Assembly (NCBI GenBank): GCA_958299035.1
Contig: CATQJL010000001.1
Span: forward strand, 79,195,594 to 79,259,593
DNA: 64,000 bases
DNA from: Cylicocyclus nassatus
Lineage: Eukaryota; Nematoda; Chromadorea; Rhabditida; Strongylidae
Direction: 5' to 3'
The position numbers and the translations under genes are program-made. This document shows, piece after piece, positions 5,562 through 50,710 of the stretch (position 1 is its first letter; every line of letters begins with the position of its first letter). The notes beneath the pieces were generated by a model. It saw only the letters and a program-made list of their open reading frames with translations, did no database searches and was not told the DNA's origin.

Positions 5562-7100
5562 CAGTGCTGGCCATAGCTATAAAGCCACCCTGAAAATCAC
5601 TGTAATTTGCTCTCTCTTGTTCGAAATTGTCTGAAAACCACTATTCTGTGTGCAAACTAACGTTGTGTCATTGACCAGAACGGCTCCCAATTTCATTGGT
5701 TTTGACCGGAGACAAATTGAAGAATTTAAAAAAAGGGGTTCTCAAGGCTGGTCACAGCTATAAAGCCACCTCTCATTTCCAATCAGTACTACGTTTTTTA
5801 AACCTGAAATTTTTTGTACATATGCAACATCAAAATATTAAACATTTCTCATGCTTGGAAGCAGTCGCCTTTTCAAAAAGAAGATTCATCCTGCATTTTT
5901 CGCTTCAAAATGTATAAAAAGTTATGATGTTTGGAAAAACTGCCTTTTCACTGAATTTTGAAGCACTTGTTTGACTCGGATGAAGGCTCTATGTTTTGCC
6001 GAGCCTTTGCAATGAATATGGCGAAAGGCGCTTTAGTTAACATTGCGTAGTCGCTGATAATTGAGCCTCTACCCCACCTCCAGGTAGATGAGTTTTCAAA
6101 AAGCAGAAATTGAGTTCTAATGCCCGAAAAGCTTGTCACGTGCTCAGCAGTCGCCTGTACAACATAGACTCGTGCACATAGCTTGAACGTCATCGCAACT
6201 CTCAGGATTTTGGTTCCTCCTTGAACGCGTTTCTTCCAAAAATGAGTGGTGCACTCTGCCTGATTATGACACACTCTAACCTCTCCATCGAGCGGAAAAC
6301 CGCTCAAAACTTCAAAATTCTAGTATTCCTGACAGTTTTGTAAGATTTGACTTAAAGAGGAGTTTAAAGCAGTAAAATTTAAAGTCATGTGAGATACACT
6401 GCGCACAACCGAACTGCAGACAAAGCGTTCTAACTTCATTGCGGCAAATAGGTCTTTGAAAACCTGGCGGCTTCTGCATGAGCACGTCGCCATGCAGACA
6501 AGGTGTCAACTTTCAATCGAAAATTTTCGCGCGTCAGAAATCGAGTTTTGCGTCTCAGAAGCGTGCTTACATCACGGTAAGATGAGGCTCGTTTATCAAG
6601 ATCAGCGATTACGCAATGTTGAGTCCAGCGCTTTTCGCCATATTCATTGCAAAGGCTCGGCAAAACATAGAGCCTTCATCCGAGTCAAACAAGTGCTTCA
6701 AAATTCGGTGAAATGGCAGTTTTTCCAAACATCTTAACTTTTTATACATTTTGAAGCAAAAAATGCAGGATGAATCTTCTTTTTGAAAAGGCGACTGCTT
6801 CCAAGCGTGAAATGTTCAATATTTTGATGTTGTACATATATGTACAAAGAATTCCAGGTTCAAAAAACATAGTGCTGATTGGAAATGAGAGGTGGCTTTA
6901 TAGCTGTGACCAGCCTTGAGAACCCCTTTTTTTAAATTTTTCAATTTGTCTCCGGTCAAAACCAATGAAATTGGGAGCTGTTCTGGTCAATGACACAACG
7001 TTAGTTTGCACACAGAGTAGTGGTTTTTCAGACAATTTCGAACAAAAGAGAGCAAATTACAGTGATTTTTAGGGTGGCTTTATAGCTATGGCCAGCACTG
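5562..7100. mobile_element. Tc1-type foldback element (1.54 kb palindrome)
   Basis: The ends are CAGTGCTGGCCATAGC and its inverse GCTATGGCCAGCACTG, with TA on both sides (5560-5561 and 7101-7102). The CAGTGCTGGCC terminus resembles Tc1-family ends. Both halves mirror each other over about 700 bp around a centre near 6330. There is no transposase, so it is non-autonomous. It sits inside the RT part of PLE copy 1. Confidence 0.85.
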
Positions 7101-7871
7101 TACATTCTTAGTAACATAGTAGACACTAATCTACAACTCTATTCCGCAGACTTCACAAACATGTTTACTAATATTCCACATGACGTTATCTTGAAAAACA
7201 TAAACGCTATACTCAGAATATGTTTTAAGAATAGTAATAGTAAGTACATTGTTAGCAAAAACAAAAGTTTACATTACTCTAGTACACCTCTGAATGGAAC
7301 AAATTTCAGAAATTATAAAATAGAAGATATAATGTATCTTACTCAATTCCTCTTAGAAAACAGCTACTGTAAAGTTGGAAAGCACATTTTCAAACAAAAA
7401 ATGGGTGTCCCACAAGGTAGCAGTGTTAGCCCAATATTAGCAGATTTGACTTTGTCATATATGGAATATTCTTGTGCTTCTAACCAGAAAAAATCTCATA
7501 GACTTTTCATACCTTTTAGGTACATGGATGACCTACTGGTCATACACAACATGGAGCAATCACAAGTACAAACAATATTACAAAATACTTATAAAAATAT
7601 TCTTGAACTAAAAAGCACCAACAGTAGCATTCTCGAATGTAACTTTCTGGACTCAAAAATATGTATAGTTGAAGACAGAATTATTACCACTCAATATAAC
7701 AAAACGGACAGTTTCAATTTTAAAGTTAACAAATTTACTCATTCAAAATCACATATCAGTCTGAATGTCAAAATTGCAATCATTTACAGTGAAATTTTGA
7801 GAATTTATAGGACTTCTACAAAATTTGAAAACTTCGTTGAAAGACTAGAATTACTTATAGATAACTTTTAG

Positions 7872-36181: not shown

Positions 36182-36265
36182 GGGTCGGTCATGAACCCTG
36201 GCAGCAGCCCTGCCAAATCATTATCTCCCACACTTCCTAGGGTAAAGACCTGCCGACTAGGAAGT
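36182..36265 (+). promoter_or_regulatory. Three consecutive hairpins upstream of the PLE copy 2 ORF
   Basis: GGGT/ACCC (36182-36198), TGGCAG/CTGCCA (36199-36215) and ACTTCCTAG/CTAGGAAGT (36231-36265) can fold in series. PLEs are known to carry self-cleaving ribozymes in their flanks, but no hammerhead core is visible here. The role is inferred only from position and pairing. Confidence 0.4.
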
Positions 36266-36351
36266 TATTTAAGTGGTCTCGAAAAACTACGTCTTGCAAT
36301 GCTGATAATTATTATAAACAAACACATTTTCATAAAAGTAAGGTTAACAAA

Positions 36352-39128
36352 ATGTACACACTAGACAATTTTGGTAACAATAACATCACAACTGCATGTT
36401 GTTCTAAATGTGTCATTTGTAAACAAATGGATCACAATCCATATATCATAAGTAATTCTACAAAATTAAAAATATACACATTCTGCACAAATAACAGCAA
36501 TTGCAAAAATAACAATGTCATCTATTGCATCACATGTAATGAATGCAATAAACAATATGTAGGTTTAACAACTAGAAATTTAAAAAGCAGGATAAGAGAA
36601 CACTTTTATCATTTAAAAAAGAATGTATATAACTTTCTATATAATCACTTCAAAACATGCACAAATAGAAGTATAACAGTTCAAATACTAGACAGTTTAG
36701 AAAACAATAAAGACAAGAATGTTTTGATAAATAAAGAACTATTCTGGATTAAATTACTCAACACAGCATATCCATTTGGATTAAATGACAATATTAAAGG
36801 ATATGGAAATATATCCAATATTGATAATCCTCTTTTACAAAAAGAAACACATCCGTACTATAGTTTAAAAATAACTAAAGACAGAATACGTAGCCAATAC
36901 AGGCATAAAAATAAAAATAAAGAAACGCTAAATTCATTCTTGAATACTATTAATAGTAAAAGCACACTACAAGATTTATTTCAATATATCCATTCATTGA
37001 AAAAAAGTTTCATAAAACAAGTAATTACAGCATGTTTTGATCCCACATTTCTAATGAAAATTGAACAAAATATAAAAATAACTGTTCTTAGTATACTTTG
37101 CAAATTCATGTTCAATTGCAACAAAAAAGAAAAACAAAATATTAATTATAACAATACCAACGTTGAATATATCCATAATATACTAGACGAAATTAACCTT
37201 AATAAAATTATTAATAATAATTACATAAAAGACATTCTCAAAAATAGAAAAATAAATTACAATCCATGCAGACTTGTATATAAATACAAAAATCCAATTT
37301 CTATGCAAATTTTCAATTACAATTCCATTCTTGCTAAACTTGATACAAACGAAATAAATCAAATTCTTACTCAAAAATGTAAATGTAAAGAATTACAGAT
37401 GGCACAATATATTGATAACAATCATGGACATATCATTACTGGAAACCTTGAAATAATTGAAGACAAACATTTAAGATCCATAATGAAAAAAGGTACCAAA
37501 TACAGGATACCTAACCATGCCAGTAAAAAAGAAATAATAGATTGGATCCAGTCAACGGTTCAACTCATTATGAATACTTACATTAAGAAATACAAACTTA
37601 AACTTGAAGAGCTTAAAAACATAGAAACTTTTCTTTTAAAAAAATTAAAACTTAGATTTAAACCACTTCTTTATAAAACCAGACTAGAAAGTAAACAAGA
37701 CCCAAATGAACAAAATTACAATTTTGAATGTAAATACATAAAAAACCTTAAAAATCAATTTGTAATTTGTCCACTTGATAAAGCAAGTAATAACTTCGGT
37801 ATTATTTGTAAAAAACTCTACATACAAACAATAATGAAAGAATTAGGAATTACGTCTGATAAGAAAAATGAAGTTCTGAATGAAAATGAAACATATAATT
37901 TATATGAAAAAGAAAATGCTAATGACATAATAAAAAGACACATTGACTTTTGCAAAAATAACAAATTACCACTACAAAATATTAACAACATACCATTACT
38001 ATACTGTGTACCAAAACTCCATAAAAACCCTACCAAATTCAGATTCATCACTGGAGCTACACACAGTAGCATTAAACCCCTTGCTTTAGAATTACAATAT
38101 GTATTTCAACACATAAAAATACATTTTAAAAACTATGTACAAGCAATTAAATATAAAAAACAAAATTCATATAATTATTGGTCAATAGACAACACTAATA
38201 TAAGTGATAAACTATCCAGTATCAACATGAATAAGTTACAATTATACTCAGCTGATTTTCAAATATGTTTACTAGCCTACCACATAACATAATAAAAAAC
38301 AACCTCAAAGAACTTCTCAAATTATGCTTTAAAAATGCAAACAAAAAATATCTAACTTATAATGGATTCAATAAAATATACTACACCGATAATATAAACA
38401 CAAAATCTAACTACGGAAACTACACCATTTCAGATTTATTGTATTATATTGATTATATTCTTGATAACAGTTTTTGCAGATTTAGCACATACATTTTTAA
38501 ACAAAAAATAGGTGTGCCACAGGGCGGTAATTTTAGTCCATTATTAGCAGACTTGACACTATCTTGGTATGAATACAAGTATATAATTAATAAAGTAAAT
38601 AACAATAAACAACTTTTTGCATTTCGTTATATGGATGATCTATTAATCATACACAATAGCACAGAACATACAGTTCACAATATGATCAAAAACATATATG
38701 ATAACAAACTAAGTTTGGAAACTACTCATACAGATAATTTGCAATGTAATTATTTAGACTTACATATTACAATCATTAATGACAAAATCATAACCAAAAT
38801 GTATAACAAAACTGATAGTTTCCCTTTTCAAGTAAAAAGATTCATACACATTAGTTCTGGTGTATCCAAACACATTAAAAACGCAATTATTTACACAGAA
38901 ACTTTAAGAATTGCCCGTACTTGCACTTATCTTGACGATTTTATCAAAAAACTAATACAGTTACGAAATTTACTTATTTGCAATGGATACAATGAAAATA
39001 TGATTTACTCAAATATTTTCAAATGCTTACATAAAAATAATTTTATACTATATAAATACAAATTTTACAATTATGATAAATTTAAAAAATTATTACACAT
39101 TCTACATCATAATCTACACAAATTATAG
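36352..39128 (+). pseudogene. Penelope-like retroelement, copy 2, with N-terminal GIY-YIG-type endonuclease (one frameshift)
   Basis: It encodes the RT and endonuclease of a PLE, which integrates by nicking DNA and priming reverse transcription. The first frame (36352-38292, 646 aa) holds a Cys-rich start (C16, C17, C20, C23, C45, C51). A GIY-YIG-like domain follows (VIYCI at 56, YVGLT at 69, Arg 80/82, ELFWIKLLNT and PFGLNDNIKGYGN at about 128-150). Then come a long linker, DKASNNFGI and PKLHKNPTKFRF (RT fingers). The second frame (38265-39128, 287 aa) has MFTSLP, GVPQGGNFSPLLADL and the catalytic FRYMDDL. Copy 1 is in one frame at the join, so a single lost base near 38262 best explains the break. 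An N-terminal endonuclease is the permuted order reported for the Hydra/Naiad-type PLE clade. The coding strand is extremely A-rich. Confidence 0.85.
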
Positions 39129-39709: not shown

Positions 39710-40227
39710 TGTAATGGCAACGTGCAGTAATAACTATTCTATCGCCGGATATCGAGAAGGTTATCAACATCGTACTTGTATAACGTCAACAACGCGGCAA
39801 CAACGACAACGACGCTGACACGATGCTGTGCAAACTGGTGCCAGGCACAATTGTTTCATATTTGTAAATGATACCGCGATATTAATTGTGTATAATGTCT
39901 TTGATCGAGGGAGTTGGAGCTTAATTAATTTTGGGCTCACATAAATACCTTAGCCACCAAGCAGTGGACGGACGGATGGTTGGCCGACTCATTTTTTCCT
40001 GAATTTCATTTCTTCTATGAGATTTCTTCTCTCCCTCTATAGCTGTTCCTTTTCTAATGCATCTTGTAGGTTAGATTTCTTGTAGTCGTCTTGTAGGTTG
40101 TAGACCTCTGCTTGTCTGATAAATCTTTAGTATTAATCTCTAGTAGTTAGGCCCCTCTAGCCGCATAGTTAACCCCGGGGCCAATCCTATCGAACTCGCG
40201 AGCGACAAATACACCTCCGGGGTTACA
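39710..40227 (+). repeat. 5' LTR
   Basis: Begins TGTAATGGCAACG and ends CCGGGGTTACA. CATAAATACC near 39950 is a possible TATA-like box. Identical to the 3' LTR apart from one base. Confidence 0.95.
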
Positions 40228-40245
40228 TGGAGGTTCCGGCGAGAT
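40228..40245 (+). promoter_or_regulatory. Probable primer-binding site
   Basis: TGGAGGTTCCGGCGAGAT starts immediately after the LTR. The initial TGG would pair with the CCA end of a tRNA. I could not assign the tRNA. Confidence 0.6.
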
Positions 40246-40775
40246 GGCTTCGTCCCCTTCCTTCTTTTCCCCCCCCCCCCTCCCCCCTCCCTTTACCCAC
40301 TTCTTCTTCTTTAATTAATATCTCAGCATTTTTTGTCAGCACCCCTCCTTTTCCCGCGAGTAATAAACAGTAGTTACAGTAGATAAGAAAAGCGCTATAG
40401 CATTGCTGACGTCTCCCATTTTTCTACAGGGGTAAAGAACAAAACCCGATCGGGCAGCGCGTCCGCTCGCGGACATAAATTGTTTCAATAATAAGGTCGC
40501 GCTGTAATTCAATTTTGTAAGAGAATCCCGCTGTCATTAGTATAAATTCTATCTCGTGATCCCTTTCCCCCCCCTCGAAGTCATCATGCCGGAATCCGCG
40601 GTTTATCTGTTAGTAATTAGTACTCGGTCGTCCAACCCCACCCCATTTGTAAGCCTTGCATCCACGATATTGTAAACACTTCATCTCAACTCAGCATTCA
40701 TGTTTTGTCCTATTCTCACATATATCACCCTTTCAATATTTCGTAAATTATCCAAAAAAAAAAACCATTCTTTAG
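40246..40775 (+). promoter_or_regulatory. Untranslated leader of the LTR element
   Basis: About 530 bases with C/T tracts and no long ORF. TTTTTCTACAG at about 40422-40432 is a good nematode-type acceptor and could be used by a leader intron or trans-splicing. Its use is not shown. Confidence 0.4.
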
Positions 40776-41483
40776 ATGCCATCCGCAACAGAATCAACTC
40801 CTAGCTCTAGTCCAATAATATGGGAAGACTTAACAGTAAACGGATCATCTGAAGTATTGCGAAGTCCAATAATGAGCAGCTCAACATCGTCGCGCTCTCC
40901 AAGCCCAGTACCGTGGCGTTCGCCACTACGGCCTATTTCCAATCTTAGTATGCTTCCCATAAATAGGCGAGTAAGACGTGTCAGAAGAAGAAGAACATCG
41001 CGAGATCATTTTGGCAACGCCTTAATGCAACCTTCTAGGGTTGAAACCATCTACTGGAGCTGTCTCAGACCTATAATAACTCGTCGAGGGTCCGATCTGA
41101 TAAGGGTATATCATTCTGTCGAAAATTTTCACAGTTCAGTACGACCACACCCAAGAGACTTACCGCCTATCGATCCATCAACGCGGTGCACTATCTGTCG
41201 TACGACAGAACACCTTTTTCACCAGTGCCAGAGCCTACAACCATTATGGCTTAAATTCACCCACATTATTTACTACCAGTTTTGTCACAGATGTGCGCAA
41301 GTTCATAGAGAGTTCTCATACGAAAACTGTCCAACGCCTCTGCGTTGTAATATCTGTCAGCTAGTAGATCACCCTGCGGTATTATGTACTTCAAGATCAT
41401 ACGTCATTATACCGGTCGACGACGAAAACCAAGAACTCAACAACGCGCCAAGATCACTTACACCTTCTAATGATGCCTTTTGA
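40776..41483 (+). CDS. Leader ORF: zinc-knuckle protein (235 aa)
   Basis: An ATG-started frame with a Ser/Pro-rich start, an Arg-rich patch (about residues 65-73) and two perfect CCHC zinc knuckles (C-x2-C-x4-H-x4-C): CTICRTTEHLFHQC at about 138-151 and CNICQLVDHPAVLC at about 190-203. A further Cys/His cluster (CHRCAQVHREF) lies between them. Such knuckles normally sit at the C-terminus of Gag and bind packaged RNA. The main Gag ORF of this element has none, so this protein may supply the nucleocapsid function. A donor GTAAGA at 40971, after codon 65, is in phase with an acceptor at 41752. Spliced RNA would therefore join the first 65 residues to the polyprotein, while unspliced RNA makes this protein. 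Confidence 0.75.
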   Translation: MPSATESTPSSSPIIWEDLTVNGSSEVLRSPIMSSSTSSRSPSPVPWRSPLRPISNLSMLPINRRVRRVRRRRTSRDHFGNALMQPSRVETIYWSCLRPIITRRGSDLIRVYHSVENFHSSVRPHPRDLPPIDPSTRCTICRTTEHLFHQCQSLQPLWLKFTHIIYYQFCHRCAQVHREFSYENCPTPLRCNICQLVDHPAVLCTSRSYVIIPVDDENQELNNAPRSLTPSNDAF

Positions 41484-41752
41484 ACAGTATTTGGTGACTC
41501 ATCCTTCTGTGGGCGTGATATATGTGGCATAGGAATAACATGTTTATTTGTTTTCACCTTGACGACCATAGCTACCTGTGAATTGTAGTAAAATTTTGTA
41601 ATCTCCTCAGTGTAGACAAGGAAATATATATAGACAAGGGCTAATCCACTTATGGAAGGTCGTCAACGTGATTCCTTTATGTCATATCACGTTCCTTTGA
41701 TAATCTCGTTAAATGTTCCGTAATTCACAAGATTCTCTAATCCTATCTACAG
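41484..41752 (+). other. Gap between leader ORF and polyprotein; possible intron end
   Basis: The polyprotein frame is open from 41741, and CCTATCTACAG ends at 41752. No ATG occurs in the polyprotein frame until 41963. Both points fit a splice acceptor at 41752. Confidence 0.45.
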
Positions 41753-44700
41753 CTGGCTCCACCGCAACGAATAACAACAAGAAAATCTCTTACATCAAGA
41801 TTATCGTCTTCGCGGTTGATAAGAAAAGACGAAGGAAGGAGGAAAACGCTTTCAGAAGAATTCCAAGAAATAGTGAGAAACGCGGCCAACGCAGTAAGAA
41901 ACGAAAACAAGTCATTCCACTTTAAGAGCGAACATAAGCCACCCAAATCCAAGATTGTACTCATGTCTGTAGAAGATAATCCTATCTATAGATCTTTTAA
42001 GATTCTCAACGAGCGCGTAGAGAAGTTCTCTGGGGCTACTGATAGAACATTCGAAGAGTTCCTAGAGGAATATAGAGATATAGTCAGTCGCTTCAAGATT
42101 ACGCATGCAGTTGCAAAGAGCTTGCTCCCTATGTTCCTGACCGGGTCAGCGAAAATCAAGTATAACAGCATAGATAATATAAACGACCTCACTTGGGAAC
42201 AACTGGTAACAGAGCTAGCAACTAGATGTAAAAATGAAGCACTTTTGAGCAACGTTCGGGATGAGCTTCATGGGCTCACCCAGGGGAAAGACACAGTCGG
42301 TGATTTTGCTCGTAAAGTAATGGCTAAAACAAAGCTTGCATACCAAGGGCAAGATAGAGGACTAGTTACGCAACTCGCAATAGACTTCTTTATTAAGGGT
42401 CTTCAACCAGACATTAGGAAGGCCATTCGCCGCTTGCCTAAGCATGAAGAGTTTGAAGACGTGGTAACTAGCGCCGAAAAGGAAGCGCGCATACTAGAAC
42501 AAGAAAGACGGGAAGATCAAGAAGTACTCAGATCTATAAACTCCTTGATAACTGACGATAAGATAGATAAGCTGCAAACTCAACTAAACAACTTGACCCT
42601 GGGTACCAACTTTAGTTGGAATAAAAGGGCTAACTGGGGACCGCCTAATAATATCCCAAGAGGCCGAGGTCGGGGTAACCGGCGTGCAGGTTTCGAAAGA
42701 TCACCAAATTTTGAGAATCGAGGAGGATTTAGTAGAGGTTTCTTTAGACCTAGGGGATCAGGACCTTTCTTGCCTCCAAGAAACTACCCTTCATTTCCCC
42801 CAAACTTTTATTACCCTCAATCGTATCCCTTACGACCACCGTACTATCCTGCTAATCAGCCTAGAGCCTCGGCTAGACCAAGGAGACTGCCAATCGCGCC
42901 AACTACTAATCTCTTTTGTTTAGCCTGCATTTTCGTCATCCTTACTCCATCTGTAACAGGTGATTTCCAGGTTTGTGGAACATCACAATTCGCACAGGTA
43001 TTGTCATTACCTAAACCTGTGGCTTGTCACGTATCTGCTGAAGAGCCAATGATACGTACGAAGGTTCAAGTTTTCAATACCAAAAATGATCCGTTACAAG
43101 TGACAGGTGTCAAGTGTTTCAAAGACGTTATCAAAATTTCAGTATATAACATCCTCTACATCCGAATTTCATACTCCGTTATCGAACGACTACGACTTCC
43201 CGTTTCTGCCGAAGATTGCCGGTTAGCCAAAGTAACGTACATGATTCGAGGGCATATTTTGCATCAGGTCACAGAAGGACTCTATATGACTTCCGAAATT
43301 GAGGATATCAACGCTTCTTTGCCACTTTTGGGTTCAGCCACCCATTTGCGTAGCCTGTACTCTATGGAAATTGGAGAGATAGCGTCGTTTGATGGCCGAT
43401 CAGTAGTCAGTTTCTTAGGCGATTTGAGGAATTGTTCTATCAAGGATGGGAAATGCCTTACTCCAGATGCAGTCGTGATATGGGAGCCAATACAGACTCC
43501 TCCCTTTTGTAAACTTGAACTTATAGGCATATATGACGGACTCGTAACTAGCTCTTACGTGGTCATTCTTGAGAACGAATTAACCTTTGAGTTTCACAAT
43601 AACTTTTATGCTCAAGCAAACCTCGTAAGACACTGTAGTATTCAAGGTGTTTTTCTGACCAGTTCCAATCAACTTTTAGCATTTCCCCAGATTCCACCCG
43701 GTTTATCTGTGCAGGACTTTCTAGCGAGTTCACGTCGACGATCGAAGCGGGGTTTGCGGAAATGGATAGACGCCGAGGGACATATCTCTTCGTACGAGCT
43801 GATCCCCAAAGAAGTTGTACCATTGATCGCTAGACTCTACTTCATAAGAGAATTGCAACAAGTACCACCATTCCATGTTACACCCATTTCAGAGCCGATC
43901 CTCCTACAAGAGATTAAGCGATGGAATATTTCCAACACAGATTTTCAGCGAAGGATTCAGCTTTACGCTGAAGAGGCGCCGCACATCAGCGCCCTACGTA
44001 CAGTCAGATACGGAGAATACAGGAAGAAGCAATTGGATTTATTCAAGAGAATCCGTCGGAGTAGAGCTCTAACCTACGCCGAATTCCAAATCCGCCAAGA
44101 TCTTGAGCGCGGTATTTCTGACGTATTTGACGAATACTTAAATGAGGAATTTGGCCGACTAGATCTGCAATTCGATCCCAGGAGGGCTCAGAATGCTACG
44201 GTTCCATACTTCGAAGAATCCCGTCTAGCTCTCATTTCGGTCGATGCAACACCATTCTATGCCTTTCAGTTACCACGGACGACTTCGCGACGAATCGATG
44301 CACCTCTGAAAGCAGTGCCAGTAACAACACCGTCACCTCCGTTGTTTCGCCAGACAACAGCAAATTCGATGCTATCTACCACATCGACTACACAACCTAA
44401 GCCTAAGCCAACCCGCACCAGACTGCACCCTTTGCCTGCAGACGATACCACGCCGTTACCAAGATATCGGGCTTCCCGCACCAGATTCCACCCTTTGCCT
44501 GCAGAGGATACCACGCCGTCACCCAGATATCGGCCTTCTCGAAATAGCCCTCAGACCACCTCAAATGATGATCTCTCCGCGCGAATTGATTTCAACAACA
44601 TCTGCGCAAGACAGTACCAAGAAATACGACAGCTTCGTGCATTCCGATTGGTTGACCCCACATGGATGGTACGAATGCTGTTGGACCGCGATGATGTCGC

Positions 44701-47700
44701 CGCAACTGTCGAGAATGACGAGCTTTACGTTTCAAAATGTAAACCAATAACATCATTCGAGATCATAGAAAGCCATGAAGTGAACGGCACTTGTTACACT
44801 TCGACTCCCGTGTTAATAGAAGGCGGTGAGTTATGGTTTTCCGTCCCCGGAACCAAGGATCTCGTCCAAGAATCCTCAACAACTCCCTGTCCTTTCATGG
44901 GTAACGTCAAAACTAATAATGTCCAACATTTGTTATCCCCGATGATGATGATTAATCAGAAAGCTAGACCATTTTTGTTCGGCCCTCCTCCTACGTTCAT
45001 AGAAGATTCACGTCGCTTTACACAAGATTATCTGCGCTATAAAAGGGGTCTTTTGGAAGATGCGCTTTCACATGCGCAAGAGGCAGGTAGAAAGGTCGGC
45101 CGCGGCCTCCGTTCTATCTACGAGGCTACCACTGCCAAATTATCGGAAGGGGTTAATGCTATAAAATGGTCTGTCCTTTATTTCCTTCTATGGATTCTGA
45201 TCCCCTTGATTATTATCGGAATCTTAGTGCTCGCCTGTTGCTTGTACATAAAACTGTATATGGTGAGGAGAACGGCAGGCACTGCGGCAACGGCAATGAT
45301 TGAGTTAGCCTCCTCCTTTTCAGGAAAGAAGACCACAACCAAAGAAAAGAAGAAAGGCAAAAGATCCAAACACGAAGTAAACACTGTATTAGTACAAGAA
45401 GAAGCCTCCCCAACGGAGGAACTTCTGTTCGTGCCACGGATATACTCTATCGACTATCGAAATACCAAACACTATCGACTACCTTATATAGAGATCCAAC
45501 TTCGACATTGTAGACGCCCTCCAAACGAGCCTTTTCGGCCCCTAGTAGCTCTTATAGATAGCGGAGCATCAGTTTCTTATGGACGCAAATCGGAACTACT
45601 GAAGAGAGGCGCTAATGTGCACAAGAAAAATGTGTCAAAAATTGTCGCGAGAGCAGCCAACGGTACAGACGTCCCATTGATAGGCCCTTTCTGCTTCACG
45701 GTAACTATCGCGCACGGGTATGAAATTTTGCATGGCTTATACGCCGCAGAAGACCATGATTGCCCCGCGCCTATCTTATTAGGGTCGGATTTCATCTCTA
45801 GGCTTAATCAATCTGGCCATGCGCTCACCATCGATCTACACAACAGCTCATTGACTGTGGGAGATAAGACTGTTAAGATGGTACAACTCAATACTCTTTC
45901 CGGGTCCAACAAGCAACCCCATGGAACATCGGATGTTAACCAAGTTTGCTATAGAGTTCGGCTGACTAACAATATCTTATTACCAAAACGATCTAAAAAC
46001 ATCGTGCCGGCTATAATTGACGGGTATTTTTCTACTCGACCTCTTGACTTCCTTATAGAAGATAACTTGAGAGAATACCCTCAGTTTTATGTCGTAGGAA
46101 GATCCTTGGTAACACCAATGTTCGATGGCCTTTGCAACATTCTGATAATGAACCCCTCGTATACCGATATACATCTGTTTCAAGGGATGAATATAGCCTC
46201 CGCTACGCCTCTACCTGAATCTACTGCCCAAGTGAGCGCCGTAGATATCAACTCGAGATATCCAGTTCGTAAAATGGCAGTGCCACCTGAAACCGATTGG
46301 GAAGAAAGAATGCCACGTTTCCCCGTAATGAAGCTTAACTATGACGTAGTCAATGAGATCGATTTCTCTGCTAGCGTGTTAGCATCAGGGGACCTAGAAG
46401 CACTCAAAGGTTTGATGCGAAAACATGCAAAAGCCTTCGTTGGCCCAGACGGACACCTAGGACATTACAATGGACCCATCAGGCACAGGATAGACTTGGT
46501 AAGAAACGCGGACATACCTGCTCGTAAAATCTATAGAGTACCGCTAGAGAAAAGACGAGAAATTCAAAGGCAGATTGAAGAAATGCTGAAGGAGGGCATC
46601 ATCAGGGAAAGCCACTCTCCCTTCTGCGCTCCCATTGTCCTGGTTAGAAAGAAAGATGCAAATAGCTGGAGGTTCACTATTGACTTTCGTGGGTTAAATG
46701 CCATTACCAAAGTTCAGCAATCCATCTTGCCAAATATACAAGATATCGTTGACCTATGTGCCAACCAATGTCTTTATACGTCCCTAGACTTTGAGCAAGG
46801 ATTTTTCCAAATCCCACTAGAACGGTCGCATTGTGAACGAACTGCGTTCGCCTGTTTTCTTGGCACGTTTGAGTTTGTACGAATGCCCATGGGATTGAAG
46901 GGTGCACCCGCAACCTTTCAAAGAATCATGGAGGATTTTAAAAGATTTCTCCGAGCGCGCGTTTTCATATACATCAATGATTTAATTATAACATCTGAAT
47001 CGCCGCGAGAACATCTACAAGATATAGACGAAGTGCTCACTAAGATTGAGCAAATAGGAATGAAGCTTAAACCTTCAAAATGCGAGTTCGCAAAAGACAA
47101 AATCAAATTTTTAGGTTTTGTATTGAGTAAGGAAGGAATACAACCAGATCCCGACAAGACTAAAGCCATCAATAACTACCCACGCCCAAGCAATGCGTCG
47201 GAAGTTCGAGCCTTCATTGGAATGTGCTCTTTCTTTAGACGTTTCATTCGGAACTTTGCAACGATAGCCGCACCCCTATTTGTTCTGATTAGGAAAGATG
47301 TTCCATTTCACTGGTCAGAAGAATGCCAGAATGCGATGACACGGCTGAAAAGAGCCCTAACATCGGCACCTATTCTAGTAGCACCACGCCTTGGAACGCC
47401 TTTCATAATCGAGACAGACAGTTCAGGGAAAGCTTTAGCGGGTGTGCTAAAACAAAACCAAAATGGGGAGGTAAAAGTAATCGCTTATGCTAGCCGTACC
47501 TTGAATTCTCAAGAAGCTCGCTATCCAGCAATCGAGCTAGAGGCCCTAGGATTAGTGTTTGCCGTACAGAAATTTAGACCATACATTGATGGTGCAAAAT
47601 GCACGGTAATAACAGATCACGCGCCGTTAAAAGCGTTACTACATCGTAAAGACTTGATAGGACGCCTAGCTAAGTATCAAATCATTTTACAAGAATATGA

Positions 47701-49045
47701 TATCGATATTGTATATCGCCCAGGTAAAAACAATATCGTTTGTGATACTCTTTCTCGTTTTCCGCCGGTGAACGCTATTCCTAGCATAGACAACAGGGAT
47801 GAAAACCTAATTTCAATGGAAGCCGTGAGAAAAGAGCAAGACGAAACTCTATGGATATCTGACTATAAGCGAGCCCTAGCCGAAAACTCTGACGTACCCG
47901 AATTATCAGAGTATCTTCTTCTTGATAATATACTCTATAAAATTCCAGTCAGACTTTCTCAAGAACCTCAGTTGGTACTCCCAGAAAACACTCAGGTAGG
48001 AAAAAAATTAATCCAAAATCTACATGCCTCCCAATTGGGTACGGCTCATCTTGGAATCAAAAAGACTCATAGCGCAGTGGCCAAAATCGCCGTTTGGAAT
48101 AATATGTACCAGGATGTGACTTCACACGTTTCGACTTGCAAGCTTTGTCAAATCAGAAAAGATCCTGCTATGTACAGGATTACAGAACCGATGAGTTTAT
48201 TTAAATTAGTTACACGACCTTGGCAACGAGTACATTCAGACTGCATCGGACCACTTCCCCTAACTTTGAATGGAAACAAATTTATTATCGTTTTTGTTGA
48301 TTCATTCTCAAAGTACATAATCGCCGAACCAATCCCAGATCAAAAGGCGCTGACCGCTTGCGACATTTTCATAAAAAGACTAGTTGCGCGTTTTGGCCCT
48401 CCAAATCTACTAGTAACTGATCAAGGATCTAACTATTCAAGCGAAGATTTCAAGAATACCCTCAAGTTGTTAGGAGTAGAACATAAAACAAGTACACCCT
48501 ACCACCATCAAAGTAATGGTCAAGTCGAACGAGCAAACCGAACTTTAGAAGAACTTATTTCTATCGCCAGTATGCAATACACTGACACTTGGGATAACTT
48601 ATTGTTTTTAATAACACACGCATATAATAGCAATGAGAACTCGCAAACCAAATATTCACCTTTTTTCTTGGTTCATGGATATGAGTCTAACAACCCTTTC
48701 CGACTAGCCCTACATCTTCCTACCAGGAGATATCTAGACGAAGATAGCTATGTAGAACAACTTACTTCCATTCTCAAGAACGTATGGAAACACGTAACTG
48801 AAAACCTTAAGTCATCACAATCTACTCAGAAGCATCACTACGATCTTCGAAAACGTGTTAATCCGGCCGATTATAAAATTGGAGATTTGATTCTAATCCG
48901 CAAAGAAGTCGGATCAAAAATTGCAGATCGTTTCGAGGGTCCCTATGAAATTTTGGAGATAAGCAAACCAAATGTTACAATTCGCGATGGAAAACGAATC
49001 CGCACTATCCACGTAAATAGGACAAAGCTTTATAAGGACGCTTGA
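41753..49045 (+). CDS. Gag / envelope-like / protease / RT / RNase H / integrase polyprotein
   Basis: Residue numbers count from 41816; the first ATG in frame is 41963. Gag helices lie at about 70-210, followed by an RGG-rich basic region (about 282-320) and PPYY (341-344). A hydrophobic signal-like segment (about 366-382) opens an envelope-like region. It has Cys-rich ectodomain sequence, a furin-type RRRSKRG site (640-646), a Thr/Pro-rich stretch and one membrane span (about 1118-1148). Then come the protease (LIDSGA, Asp 1248) and the RT (motif A LDFEQGF, Asp 1658; motif C YINDL, Asn 1721-Asp 1722 where YxDD is expected). RNase H follows (ETDSSG, Asp 1868; VITDHAPLKAL; CDTLSRFP). The integrase has H2070/H2078/C2108/C2111, catalytic D2142, D2202 and E2238 (D-35-E), and a GPY motif; there is no chromodomain. 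An envelope-like part between Gag and protease is not the usual order. I could not assign the ectodomain to a named glycoprotein family. Confidence 0.95.
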   Translation: MAPPQRITTRKSLTSRLSSSRLIRKDEGRRKTLSEEFQEIVRNAANAVRNENKSFHFKSEHKPPKSKIVLMSVEDNPIYRSFKILNERVEKFSGATDRTFEEFLEEYRDIVSRFKITHAVAKSLLPMFLTGSAKIKYNSIDNINDLTWEQLVTELATRCKNEALLSNVRDELHGLTQGKDTVGDFARKVMAKTKLAYQGQDRGLVTQLAIDFFIKGLQPDIRKAIRRLPKHEEFEDVVTSAEKEARILEQERREDQEVLRSINSLITDDKIDKLQTQLNNLTLGTNFSWNKRANWGPPNNIPRGRGRGNRRAGFERSPNFENRGGFSRGFFRPRGSGPFLPPRNYPSFPPNFYYPQSYPLRPPYYPANQPRASARPRRLPIAPTTNLFCLACIFVILTPSVTGDFQVCGTSQFAQVLSLPKPVACHVSAEEPMIRTKVQVFNTKNDPLQVTGVKCFKDVIKISVYNILYIRISYSVIERLRLPVSAEDCRLAKVTYMIRGHILHQVTEGLYMTSEIEDINASLPLLGSATHLRSLYSMEIGEIASFDGRSVVSFLGDLRNCSIKDGKCLTPDAVVIWEPIQTPPFCKLELIGIYDGLVTSSYVVILENELTFEFHNNFYAQANLVRHCSIQGVFLTSSNQLLAFPQIPPGLSVQDFLASSRRRSKRGLRKWIDAEGHISSYELIPKEVVPLIARLYFIRELQQVPPFHVTPISEPILLQEIKRWNISNTDFQRRIQLYAEEAPHISALRTVRYGEYRKKQLDLFKRIRRSRALTYAEFQIRQDLERGISDVFDEYLNEEFGRLDLQFDPRRAQNATVPYFEESRLALISVDATPFYAFQLPRTTSRRIDAPLKAVPVTTPSPPLFRQTTANSMLSTTSTTQPKPKPTRTRLHPLPADDTTPLPRYRASRTRFHPLPAEDTTPSPRYRPSRNSPQTTSNDDLSARIDFNNICARQYQEIRQLRAFRLVDPTWMVRMLLDRDDVAATVENDELYVSKCKPITSFEIIESHEVNGTCYTSTPVLIEGGELWFSVPGTKDLVQESSTTPCPFMGNVKTNNVQHLLSPMMMINQKARPFLFGPPPTFIEDSRRFTQDYLRYKRGLLEDALSHAQEAGRKVGRGLRSIYEATTAKLSEGVNAIKWSVLYFLLWILIPLIIIGILVLACCLYIKLYMVRRTAGTAATAMIELASSFSGKKTTTKEKKKGKRSKHEVNTVLVQEEASPTEELLFVPRIYSIDYRNTKHYRLPYIEIQLRHCRRPPNEPFRPLVALIDSGASVSYGRKSELLKRGANVHKKNVSKIVARAANGTDVPLIGPFCFTVTIAHGYEILHGLYAAEDHDCPAPILLGSDFISRLNQSGHALTIDLHNSSLTVGDKTVKMVQLNTLSGSNKQPHGTSDVNQVCYRVRLTNNILLPKRSKNIVPAIIDGYFSTRPLDFLIEDNLREYPQFYVVGRSLVTPMFDGLCNILIMNPSYTDIHLFQGMNIASATPLPESTAQVSAVDINSRYPVRKMAVPPETDWEERMPRFPVMKLNYDVVNEIDFSASVLASGDLEALKGLMRKHAKAFVGPDGHLGHYNGPIRHRIDLVRNADIPARKIYRVPLEKRREIQRQIEEMLKEGIIRESHSPFCAPIVLVRKKDANSWRFTIDFRGLNAITKVQQSILPNIQDIVDLCANQCLYTSLDFEQGFFQIPLERSHCERTAFACFLGTFEFVRMPMGLKGAPATFQRIMEDFKRFLRARVFIYINDLIITSESPREHLQDIDEVLTKIEQIGMKLKPSKCEFAKDKIKFLGFVLSKEGIQPDPDKTKAINNYPRPSNASEVRAFIGMCSFFRRFIRNFATIAAPLFVLIRKDVPFHWSEECQNAMTRLKRALTSAPILVAPRLGTPFIIETDSSGKALAGVLKQNQNGEVKVIAYASRTLNSQEARYPAIELEALGLVFAVQKFRPYIDGAKCTVITDHAPLKALLHRKDLIGRLAKYQIILQEYDIDIVYRPGKNNIVCDTLSRFPPVNAIPSIDNRDENLISMEAVRKEQDETLWISDYKRALAENSDVPELSEYLLLDNILYKIPVRLSQEPQLVLPENTQVGKKLIQNLHASQLGTAHLGIKKTHSAVAKIAVWNNMYQDVTSHVSTCKLCQIRKDPAMYRITEPMSLFKLVTRPWQRVHSDCIGPLPLTLNGNKFIIVFVDSFSKYIIAEPIPDQKALTACDIFIKRLVARFGPPNLLVTDQGSNYSSEDFKNTLKLLGVEHKTSTPYHHQSNGQVERANRTLEELISIASMQYTDTWDNLLFLITHAYNSNENSQTKYSPFFLVHGYESNNPFRLALHLPTRRYLDEDSYVEQLTSILKNVWKHVTENLKSSQSTQKHHYDLRKRVNPADYKIGDLILIRKEVGSKIADRFEGPYEILEISKPNVTIRDGKRIRTIHVNRTKLYKDA

Positions 49046-49203
49046 TGTAATTATTCATGTAGTGTTTACATGTACAAAACTACAATTCTTTTATTGCGGG
49101 AGGTGATTAAAAAAAACAATAAGCTGATCAGCCGGGAGGTGTTTTTTTTTGTCCTTTTGGGTACCATTACAGAGAAAAAAAAGGTATCAAAAAAAATTGA
49201 CAG
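49046..49203 (+). other. Short untranslated stretch after pol
   Basis: Contains two GGGAGGTG repeats (49098 and 49133) and T/A runs. It may hold poly(A) signals for the antisense transcript; none is certain. Confidence 0.35.
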
Positions 49204-49660
49204 TTAAATAGCCGTCTCCAAGGGAGGAGCAGAAGGCTCCACCGTGCGAGGAGAATAAGCAGGCGGAGCCTGCGGCTCCTCCCTCGGAGCCGGAGGAGTT
49301 GCATGTCCTCTTGCATGGCGGCTAATCACTCGCGACTGATTCCATTCTTTGTAACGTCGCCACACGGCGTATGCCAGCAGCAACAAGAAAAAGATGGTTG
49401 CAGCTGTAAGAGAAAAGAATGGTTTCATAGTTTAACTTTTTACAGGAAATGCTGCCTCTTTTTTTGCATGAACAGAAAAAAAACCCACCAATGCTAAAAC
49501 CCGAAATGGCTGAAGCTTCAGCTGGGTGATTAGCAGAGGTGTCTTCACAAAATTTATTTTCAGTTGCCTCGTAACAGATGCAAAAAACGGAGCCGGAGTC
49601 CTGGTAACACACTCCACGGTCGAAACAACGAAATGGGCAGTAGCTCCTGTCAACGATCAT
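49204..49660 (-). CDS. Antisense gene: EGF-like, single-pass membrane protein with PPAY and PSAP motifs
   Basis: Minus strand, two exons: 49489-49660 and 49204-49403, separated by an 85-nt intron (donor G|GTGGGT, acceptor TTTCTCTTACAG). Lengths 172 + 200 nt keep the frame and give 123 aa. The ATG at 49660 lies one base after TTTTCCAG, a typical nematode cis- or SL trans-splice acceptor. Exon 1 has six cysteines spaced 3-5-8-1-8 (C8, C12, C18, C27, C29, C38), an EGF-like pattern. Exon 2 has a hydrophobic span (ATIFFLLLLAYAV), then a basic stretch and a tail with PPAY and PSAP. PPxY recruits NEDD4-type ligases and P(S/T)AP recruits TSG101 in viral budding. No cleaved signal is seen, so a reverse signal-anchor topology (EGF outside) is inferred. 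Without splicing, exon 2 could start at its own ATG (49428). Confidence 0.6.
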
Positions 49661-49842
49661 GCTGGAAAAGAAAAGCCTCTCTTACCGACAATACATTTAC
49701 AAAAGAAGAATACAAAAGAAGATAAGAAGAAAAACTGACCTACAGAGAGCCGGCTAGTTCTAAGATCAATGCCAAAGTGGATTATCCAACGATCGATGTA
49801 TTTCATCAACTTGTCCTTTCGCCTTGTCATCTTCAAGACCAG

Positions 49843-49911
49843 TGACTCAACTCCACTATAATAATGACGTCATCATCGCCTTACCGGCTCCACCACTATC
49901 TGATGACGTCA
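49843..49911 (-). promoter_or_regulatory. Putative antisense promoter: two CREs, TATA-like box, AP-1-type site
   Basis: Palindromic TGACGTCA occurs at 49904-49911 and 49865-49872. Read on the minus strand these are followed by ATTATTATA (about 49857-49865) and TGAGTCA (49843-49849). The order CRE, CRE, TATA-like, AP-1 points into the antisense gene starting about 180 bases further on. Confidence 0.5.
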
Positions 49912-50181
49912 TTCTCGTCTCGCCTTACTACCGTATCCCTGCGATACAGTAACTTCGCGTCCAACATTTCCCTGTCATTTTTTTCCTGCAATATTTGCTG
50001 TAGATTATTCAGATTGTATTACAAATCATCCGTTCGCCCTTTAGGTGGGCTTCAAAAAAAAAAAAAACAACATCAAAACAAAAAAAAAGAGAGCTCCAAC
50101 CCTCTCCACATCCTCTCCATTACTCTAGCCGTTCGTTGCGCAAGCACAGCGGCTCCTCAAGATCCGAGACGGATCTTCTCC
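49912..50181. other. Sequence before the 3' LTR; A-rich tract
   Basis: Includes A runs at about 50054-50090. The plus-strand frame of 145 codons here crosses into the LTR and has no motif. Confidence 0.4.
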
Positions 50182-50192
50182 GAAGCGAAGGA
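50182..50192 (+). promoter_or_regulatory. Probable polypurine tract
   Basis: GAAGCGAAGGA lies directly before the 3' LTR, where plus-strand DNA priming is expected. One pyrimidine interrupts it. Confidence 0.5.
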
Positions 50193-50710
50193 TGTAATGG
50201 CAACGTGCAGTAATAACTATTCTATCGCCGGATATCGAGAAGGTTATCAACATCGTACTTGTATAACGTCAACAACGCGGCAACAACGACAACGACGCTG
50301 ACACGATGCTGTGCAAACTGGTGCCAGGCACAATTGTTTCATATTTGTAAATGATACCGCGATATTAATTGTGTATAATGTCTTTGATCGAGGGAGTTGG
50401 AGCTTAATTAATTTTGGGCTCACATAAATACCTTAGCCACCAAGCAGTGGACGGACGGATGGTTGGCCGACTCATTTTTTCCTGAATTTCATTTCTTCTA
50501 TGAGATTTCTTCTCTCCCTCTATAGCTGTTCCTTTTCTAATGCATCTTGTAGGTTAGATTTCTTGTAGTCGTCTTGTAGGTTGTAGACCTCTGCTTGTCT
50601 AATAAATCTTTAGTATTAATCTCTAGTAGTTAGGCCCCTCTAGCCGCATAGTTAACCCCGGGGCCAATCCTATCGAACTCGCGAGCGACAAATACACCTC
50701 CGGGGTTACA
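50193..50710 (+). repeat. 3' LTR
   Basis: 518 bp, TG...CA, followed by CCAG. One difference from the 5' LTR by eye (A at 50601). Confidence 0.95.

Follow-up and report, generated by a model that had tools for sequence, protein, structure and literature searches.

In the available text of two studies on plant Ty3/Gypsy elements (Retand, Grande with its gene23, and RIRE2), additional ORFs are described on the antisense strand, between pol and the 3' LTR (PMC11963269, PMC7264820). Retroviruses also carry antisense genes, including HBZ of HTLV-1, which lie on the minus strand on the 3' side of the element, according to the part of a review that was available (PMC10186651). In the accessible sections of the corresponding accounts, Cer1 presents a sense-strand spliced accessory gene reaching between pol and the 3' LTR (PMC10309623), and the LTR elements of bdelloid rotifers present varied small ORF3s, some of them with transmembrane domains (PMC5408684). 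Among the matches listed in our literature search, with subscription papers mostly outside it, we found no antisense EGF gene in a retroelement.

The window analysed here (the whole stretch of 64 kb of DNA from the nematode Cylicocyclus nassatus) contains a complete LTR element spanning positions 39710-50710 (Table 1). Its domains follow the Ty3/Gypsy order (Retrotrans_gag, RVT_1, RT_RNaseH, H2C2, rve), with a weak match for the protease in the long frame (E = 0.06), and its Gag contains a PPYY motif. The accessory ORF upstream of gag matches no Pfam family above cut-off; weak relatives of it are found in three of the related loci described below (L055, L059, and L075). An env-like region (42900-45350), with a hydrophobic leader, an RRRSKR motif, and a membrane span, is located inside the gag-pol frame. 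It matches the Pfam family Monjiviricetes_fusion with E-values of 1.4e-4 and 3.4e-4, below the family cut-off, and a structure model of one piece of it (44396-45349) was of no use (pLDDT 52.7). An env after gag is also present in the related copies L041 and L067; no env between gag and pol in a Gypsy element was found among the matches listed in the literature search, and the canonical retroviral layout, with env downstream of pol, is absent from the window element. At the single mismatch between the two LTRs (40118/50601), the 5' LTR reads GATAAA and the 3' LTR reads AATAAA; the LTR poly(A) signal of this copy is therefore confined to the 3' LTR. Elsewhere in the window, the translations of two frames (7086-7871 and 36241-39128) read as what we take to be Penelope-like RTs, one with a presumed GIY-YIG-like stretch. 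No relatives were detected in viral contigs searched with the antisense protein and with RT, env, and IN pieces, nor in genome contigs searched with RT.

Table 1. Features of the LTR element and of its antisense gene, in positions of the 64-kb window.
Feature	Position	Strand	Basis or detail
5' LTR, 518 nt	39710..40227	+	1 mismatch to the 3' LTR; TSD CCAG (4 bp)
Accessory ORF, 235 aa, Cys/His knuckle-like repeats, upstream of gag	40776..41483	+	ORF list
Long open frame (stop-to-stop): gag, env-like region, PR, RT, RNase H, IN	41741..49045	+	ORF and Pfam
AATAAA, 108 nt past the antisense stop	49090..49095	-	Motif
Exon 2: membrane span, basic flank, Pro-rich tail (PPAY, PSAP), TAA stop	49204..49403	-	200 nt
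Hairpin with 32-nt arms, 84% complementary, holding the tail-coding region	49212..49293		z -6.6 (+), -8.6 (-)
Phase-1 intron, GTGGGT...TTACAG (GTGGGT...TCTTACAG)	49404..49488	-	85 nt
Exon 1: MIVDR, EGF-like module (six Cys), and stalk	49489..49660	-	172 nt
Acceptor-like TTTTCCAG, one base (C) before the ATG; putative trans-splice or 5'UTR acceptor	49662..49669	-	Sequence pattern
Putative antisense promoter block: two TGACGTCA (49865, 49904), one TGAGTCA (49843)	49843..49911	-	Motif pattern
3' LTR, 518 nt	50193..50710	+	Pairs with the 5' LTR

The initial annotation of this DNA had proposed a two-exon antisense gene in the usual env position. Its location between pol and the 3' LTR is correct, but the term does not suit this element, whose env-like region sits between gag and the protease. 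The gene model itself was recovered exactly, to the base: once joined, the two exons give 123 codons followed by TAA. As had been described, the translation contains six cysteines in an EGF spacing (C-x3-C-x5-C-x8-C-x-C-x8-C), a single hydrophobic span (mean Kyte-Doolittle value of 2.42 over 17 residues), and both PPAY and PSAP in its tail, and a single base separates the end of TTTTCCAG from the ATG. The donor GTGGGT is presumably weak by consensus; it is replaced by GTAGGT in a diverged and broken copy (L011), and 12 of the 17 modelled relatives have GTGAGT or GTAAGT. The motif TGACGTCA occurs three times in the 64-kb window, two of which are in the putative promoter block. Codon usage gives weak support to the gene (log-likelihood of +2).

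We then compared these features with random expectation. In 1000 dinucleotide shuffles of 49046-50192 (one- and two-exon models of 60-250 aa), neither a loose EGF pattern nor the two late-domain motifs together were obtained (0/1000 in each case). In the whole 64-kb window, the loose EGF pattern was found in 34 of 2027 models (6 of the 34 from the antisense gene region), and only one of the 2027 models, the antisense gene itself, combines all four features. As the motifs were picked after the fact, the comparative evidence outweighs these shuffle tests. Chance or low complexity is an unlikely origin in view of the shuffles, and above all of the comparison across families.

An unspliced ORF of 74 aa (49428-49204), with its ATG inside the intron, is also open in the window copy, and exon 2 is listed with an open frame of at least 75 aa in the near copies. 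A second, unspliced product may therefore exist alongside the spliced gene; the spliced model was preferred because the relatives share the intron. Two possible sources of a signal peptide were rejected: upstream extension, where the frame of the ATG hits a stop after few codons, and a possible 5'UTR exon, in which no in-frame start was read by eye.

The DNA of 49204-49660 was used to search the host genome (514.7 Mb, 369 contigs), and at least 11 copies were identified, i.e. the window, nine copies at 99% identity, and one at 91%. Stops and frameshifts are not found in most sister copies: the nine near-identical ones are all open in both exons, and the diverged, rearranged copy is broken. Exon 2 is unchanged in all nine, while exon 1 displays two changes, S22F in L005 and a silent one in L009. 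Exon lengths are constant among the 10 near-identical copies (window included), and the intron varies between 85 and 90 nt, with GTGGGT and TTACAG kept. Variable columns amount to 2 out of 372 in the exons versus 18 out of 775 in the rest of 49046-50192 (P = 0.03, Fisher test), and indels to 0 versus 11 blocks, mostly in homopolymers. Both LTRs were found at the expected place in six of the nine near copies, with 0-1 mismatch (in one case also a gap column) and 4-bp duplications; no 5' LTR was found at this place in the three others. The family is young and, therefore, the near copies alone prove little. In the 91% copy (L011; C316:60659900-60662200), inverted pieces of the accessory ORF and of the LTR start are fused to the 3' part of the element, with a fusion point at about 49255, inside the hairpin loop. 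Over the 105 codons compared, this copy shows 6 synonymous and 11 non-synonymous changes (23% synonymous under a uniform expectation) and thus no overall constraint; the synonymous share is 5/7 in exon 2 and 1/10 in exon 1.

To broaden the comparison, the genome was searched with the antisense protein. From the 70 matches at E ≤ 10, 22 came from known copies and 48 from elsewhere, and 45 of these 48 start within residues 1-5, i.e. in the EGF exon. We fetched 36 loci, covering 42 of the 48 matches; these loci were picked by similarity to the antisense protein, a choice that favours conserved copies. A related EGF exon lies antisense to a related integrase in 24 of the 36 loci; the distance from the end of the integrase to the EGF match is 340-672 nt, similar to that in the window. 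The integrase pieces have another orientation in L064 and L057, only gag or env pieces were found in L041 and L070, and L075 has weak matches to gag and to the accessory ORF. No element gene was detected at E ≤ 0.01 in L053, L054, L056, L063, L065, L072, and L074. The 22 integrase cores of sufficient length, among them those of the window and of the rearranged L064, group into 8 clusters at 90% identity and into 5 at 80%. Next to the integrase, four loci (L052, L055, L059, and L071) have a pair of EGF matches separated by about 700 nt, of which the distal match is degenerate in L071; in L053, two EGF matches are 3.8 kb apart, with no integrase in the fetched stretch. The distal genes share 55-84% identity with each other and 48-58% with the proximal genes, which vary widely among themselves (41-89%).

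For hand-picked representatives, the distances between EGF genes are correlated with those between integrases, both for the pol-proximal gene (10 elements; r = 0.70, with 1 of 2000 permutations as high) and for the distal gene (9 elements; r = 0.71, with 2 of 2000 permutations as high). At the sequence level, the EGF gene is inherited together with the integrase.

We also searched for relatives of the integrase, and 150 of the 1241 candidates were scored. At least about 90 matches have an identity of at least 51% (counted by eye among these 150), and about 30 of them are within about 4 kb of a match to the EGF protein. Six integrase relatives lacking a first-pass match were sampled over the 1.65 kb past the integrase match, and none displays a recognisable EGF exon: the best E-value of the antisense profile was 0.034, for a sequence that is not EGF-like on reading. 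One of the six, L082, does have a span of the exon-2 type, similar to the one in L059. Nor was the EGF gene found in two elements from a more distant clade. Although widespread, the gene has apparently been lost, replaced, or blurred in part of the integrase clade, or was never there. Its antisense location past pol recurs across families in the 24 loci mentioned above; the 3' LTR on its other side was checked in the window and the near copies. Three related elements with no recognised EGF gene (L078, L079, and L080) contain, downstream of pol, a frame of about 230 aa on the sense strand, and the second half of this frame includes LPAY or LPPY. Finally, L065 and L072 (C223:75997469-76010824) carry EGF/membrane genes located 8.7 kb apart, and a gag, pol, or env belonging to this lineage was not found in the fetched stretches; a frame that we take to be a LINE-type RT lies between them (L077). 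These two genes are possibly host genes, domesticated copies, or remnants.

The architecture of the gene was compared using models built for 30 genes, 29 of which gave a model and 18 of which were kept (the window and 17 relatives). The 12 others were dropped because they were broken, unclear, without a model, or duplicated (L042, L046, L047, L052 proximal, both genes of L053, L054, L058, L059 proximal, L063, L073, and L074); the model of L046 was good and was only dropped as a duplicate of L044. Near-duplicates persist among the 18 kept models (L060/64/67 and L066/68/71). All 18 present a phase-1 intron of 53-134 nt adjoining the start of the membrane span; the position is partly built in, since model scoring favoured a span near the junction, and the phase was unscored. 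The products are 111-131 aa long. A [CT]AG is found 0-1 nt before the ATG in 16 of the 18 models (all except L065 and L072), an AATAAA within 250 nt past the stop in 8, and a CRE-/AP-1-like (bZIP-like) site 183-271 nt upstream of the ATG in 9 (using loose patterns, without shuffle control). Such sites suggest a putative location for the promoter. HBZ is itself a bZIP protein, and no bZIP domain was detected in the window protein (no Pfam match at E ≤ 1).

The EGF-like nature of the first exon was examined in an alignment of 21 distinct, hand-picked peptides, from which broken ones were left out except L041. Five of the cysteines and a single glycine are shared by all the peptides, and the first cysteine by 20 of the 21. 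In the HMM search for EGF domains suggested by the initial annotation, 11 of the 21 members match PF00008 (Pfam EGF) at E ≤ 1 (best 3.6e-5), and the window protein remains below every Pfam EGF cut-off (13.4 bits against EGF_Teneurin, for a cut-off of 24.3). EGF_Teneurin matches 10 and hEGF 8 of the 21 members (E ≤ 1). The PROSITE EGF signatures are absent from the window protein. No match to the TRP28 domain was found at E ≤ 1, either with the window protein or with the EGF-exon peptides. Compared with the PDB, the EGF profile has its best matches in a mastigoneme protein (4.5e-4) and a Notch EGF chain (5e-4). The predicted structure of exon 1 has a low pLDDT (60.4), with short strands at 16-21 and 24-29, and its best Foldseek match is an EGF chain of Notch-1 (E = 3.3); several of the Foldseek matches are Notch EGFs, none of them significant. 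At the sequence level, these comparisons together support an EGF-like module in the antisense protein family.

Selection was then estimated on 31 EGF exons, i.e. that of the window and 30 from 26 loci. Broken, partial, or near-duplicate sequences were left out (L041, L047-L051, L056, L061, L070, L076, and the second matches of L071 and L075). Among the 43 pairs with 5-30% nucleotide difference, 37 have a finite dS and 6 are saturated. The median dN/dS of the 37 pairs is 0.11 (lowest 0.02, highest 0.30), for pairs that are not independent and cover about 37 codons, with the codon-position count as the only control. Along the antisense frame, differences at the three codon positions are 0.097, 0.082, and 0.284 for pairs below 30%, and 0.383, 0.348, and 0.607 for all pairs. 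Judging from these substitutions, the EGF exon is under purifying selection across several element families. For exon 2 (11 pairs), dN/dS values are 0.04/0.18, 0.03/0.12, 0.04/0.10, 0.04/0.08, 0.26/1.31, 0.58/1.33, 0/0.02, 0.11/1.25, and 0/0, with, between families, 0.87/1.54 for L069 versus L045 and 0.65/1.00 for the window versus L060. This exon is thus less constrained between families. With its dN/dS, its common phase-1 intron, and its divergence alongside the integrase, the gene is strongly supported as genuine by the sequence comparison: it runs antisense, is split by an intron, and encodes an EGF-like module together with a membrane span.

The two late-domain motifs have another distribution. 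Both occur in 282 of 200,000 shuffles of the 47-residue tail. PPxY and P[ST]AP are each present in only 1 of the 18 kept models, that of the window, and in 1 of the 29 models obtained; a PTAP appears in one further gene, under another splice model only. An SAPP(L)E-like end is common to the window, the L060 cluster, and L065. Furthermore, the tail is encoded within a hairpin, absent from the initial annotation, that is strong in 4 of the 18 models (window, L060, L064, and L067; z from -3.6 to -9.0), against z-values from -2.4 to 1.2 in the 14 others (mononucleotide shuffles). When the arms were shuffled with their pairing kept, both motifs appeared in 1 of the 108,108 open trials (of 200,000), and the hairpin alone therefore does not create them. 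Given the 1/18 counts and a hairpin limited to the window and the L060 cluster, the late motifs are at most a feature of the window family.

The reading that we favour, with a probability of about 0.7, is that the gene encodes an N-out, single-pass surface accessory protein with an EGF-like module, expressed from its own promoter and acting at the cell surface in binding or signalling. Transcription would start from the integrated DNA by this promoter, possibly driven by bZIP factors in the window family, and the mRNA would acquire, immediately upstream of the ATG, either a spliced leader or a 5'UTR exon. The intron would outlive retrotransposition, since in the retroelement cycle the template for reverse transcription is the sense RNA, which lacks the splice signals of the opposite strand. 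The EGF-like module is predicted to be outside and the short tail inside, with no cleaved signal peptide. The positive-inside rule relates the charges flanking a span to membrane topology. As no signal peptide is evident and acidic residues precede the span while basic ones follow it, N-out is the simplest reading, and surface display would rest on type III (N-out) insertion. Once outside, the module might bind a host receptor or the envelope-like protein of the element, and so change the signalling, the spread, or the re-infection of the expressing cell; in the window family, the tail may have additionally acquired contacts of the Nedd4 and Tsg101 types. More tentatively, and with the odds somewhat against it, the elements could carry one or two dedicated surface ligand genes, antisense and spliced, with their own stress- or signal-responsive promoter, which would manipulate host EGF-/Notch-type receptors for the spread or activity of the element. 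If true, this would be a retroelement-coded growth-factor-like signal.

The two functions put forward at the outset, a link between particles and ESCRT and the presentation of an EGF-like ligand, do not fare equally, the second being the better candidate. The proposal of a general ESCRT link is not sustained, with each motif in 1 of 18 models and a Gag that already carries PPYY. An adaptor whose main job would be to recruit Nedd4-family ligases and Tsg101/ESCRT at the membrane for the budding of Gag particles could draw on the shuffle count of the tail and on an exon 2 invariant in the nine near-identical copies; confined to the window family, with a tail lying within a lineage-specific hairpin, such a role is improbable. 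We would give a somewhat better, though still low, chance to a protein that binds the envelope-like protein of the element or its receptor, clears it from the surface, and limits re-infection of the same cell, in the manner of superinfection-exclusion proteins or of Nedd4 adaptors such as Commissureless. Both this element and two of the fetched relatives do have an env-like region, and the product is predicted to be membrane-bound and inherited with the element, but the sorting motifs of the tail are not conserved. We infer that a surface EGF-like accessory role ranks first and a budding role low.

Readings without a function for the protein are less likely still. The hairpin, with strongly negative z-values on both strands, could suggest that the region acts as an RNA (hairpin or antisense regulatory transcript), the frame being a by-product. 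It covers the tail only and is strong in just four models, however, and the third-position excess and the dN/dS of 0.11 are found in the EGF exon, outside the hairpin; this codon pattern largely refutes a non-coding region, to which we give almost no weight. A phase-1 intron beside an EGF module is characteristic of host genes for extracellular proteins, and the isolated genes L065 and L072 would also be compatible with a host EGF membrane gene that was recently captured and is of no use to the element. The correlation of EGF with integrase distances and the persistence of selection across families speak against such a passenger, which we regard as very unlikely. Recent idle carriage is thus unlikely, and an old capture may nevertheless be the origin of the gene. 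For the favoured surface protein, a direct test of gene function is possible, because copies of different ages are present in one genome.

Compared with the plant antisense ORFs, the gene has the same location and is also kept across families, and an own promoter has been reported for gene23 (PMC11963269, PMC7264820). In the available text, however, most of the plant proteins have a TRP28 domain, for which DNA binding is predicted, or are located in the nucleus (GENE23), whereas an EGF-like membrane protein is found here, with an intron and in an animal genome. Like HBZ, it is a minus-strand gene toward the 3' side of the element (PMC10186651); HBZ is made from a 3' LTR promoter, according to the available part of the review, whereas the present gene encodes an EGF/membrane protein and the bZIP-type sites are in the DNA, within the element and outside the LTR. 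Unlike the antisense EGF gene, CERV of Cer1 is a sense-strand gene, and its product has a nuclear action, as far as the accessible account goes (PMC10309623). The rotifer ORF3s likewise add an ORF for a membrane protein past the pol of an invertebrate element, but the available part of their description contains no mention of EGF, and its single use of 'antisense' concerns small RNAs (PMC5408684). The Atlas virus of hookworm (PMC9094657) and the mosquito BEL-Pao elements with a chuvirus glycoprotein (PMC7642597) are, in the text available, likewise complete invertebrate LTR elements with a captured glycoprotein. Both are BEL-Pao elements, with a Gag-Pol-Env order in Atlas, whereas the present element is of Gypsy type, with an env-like region between gag and the protease and an antisense EGF gene; neither antisense nor EGF is mentioned in the available part of the Atlas account (PMC9094657). 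With the EGF modules of Notch and of coagulation factors VII and X, the protein shares the six-cysteine spacing and the C-x-C, but it has a single module and no signal peptide. Antisense coding would have a use of its own, as an intron invisible to the genomic RNA can survive copying. The known antisense genes of plant retrotransposons and of some retroviruses are regulators or have no assigned function in the accounts available; an antisense, intron-bearing gene for an EGF-like membrane protein, selected across families and doubled in some elements, suggests that a mobile element signals to cells from outside.
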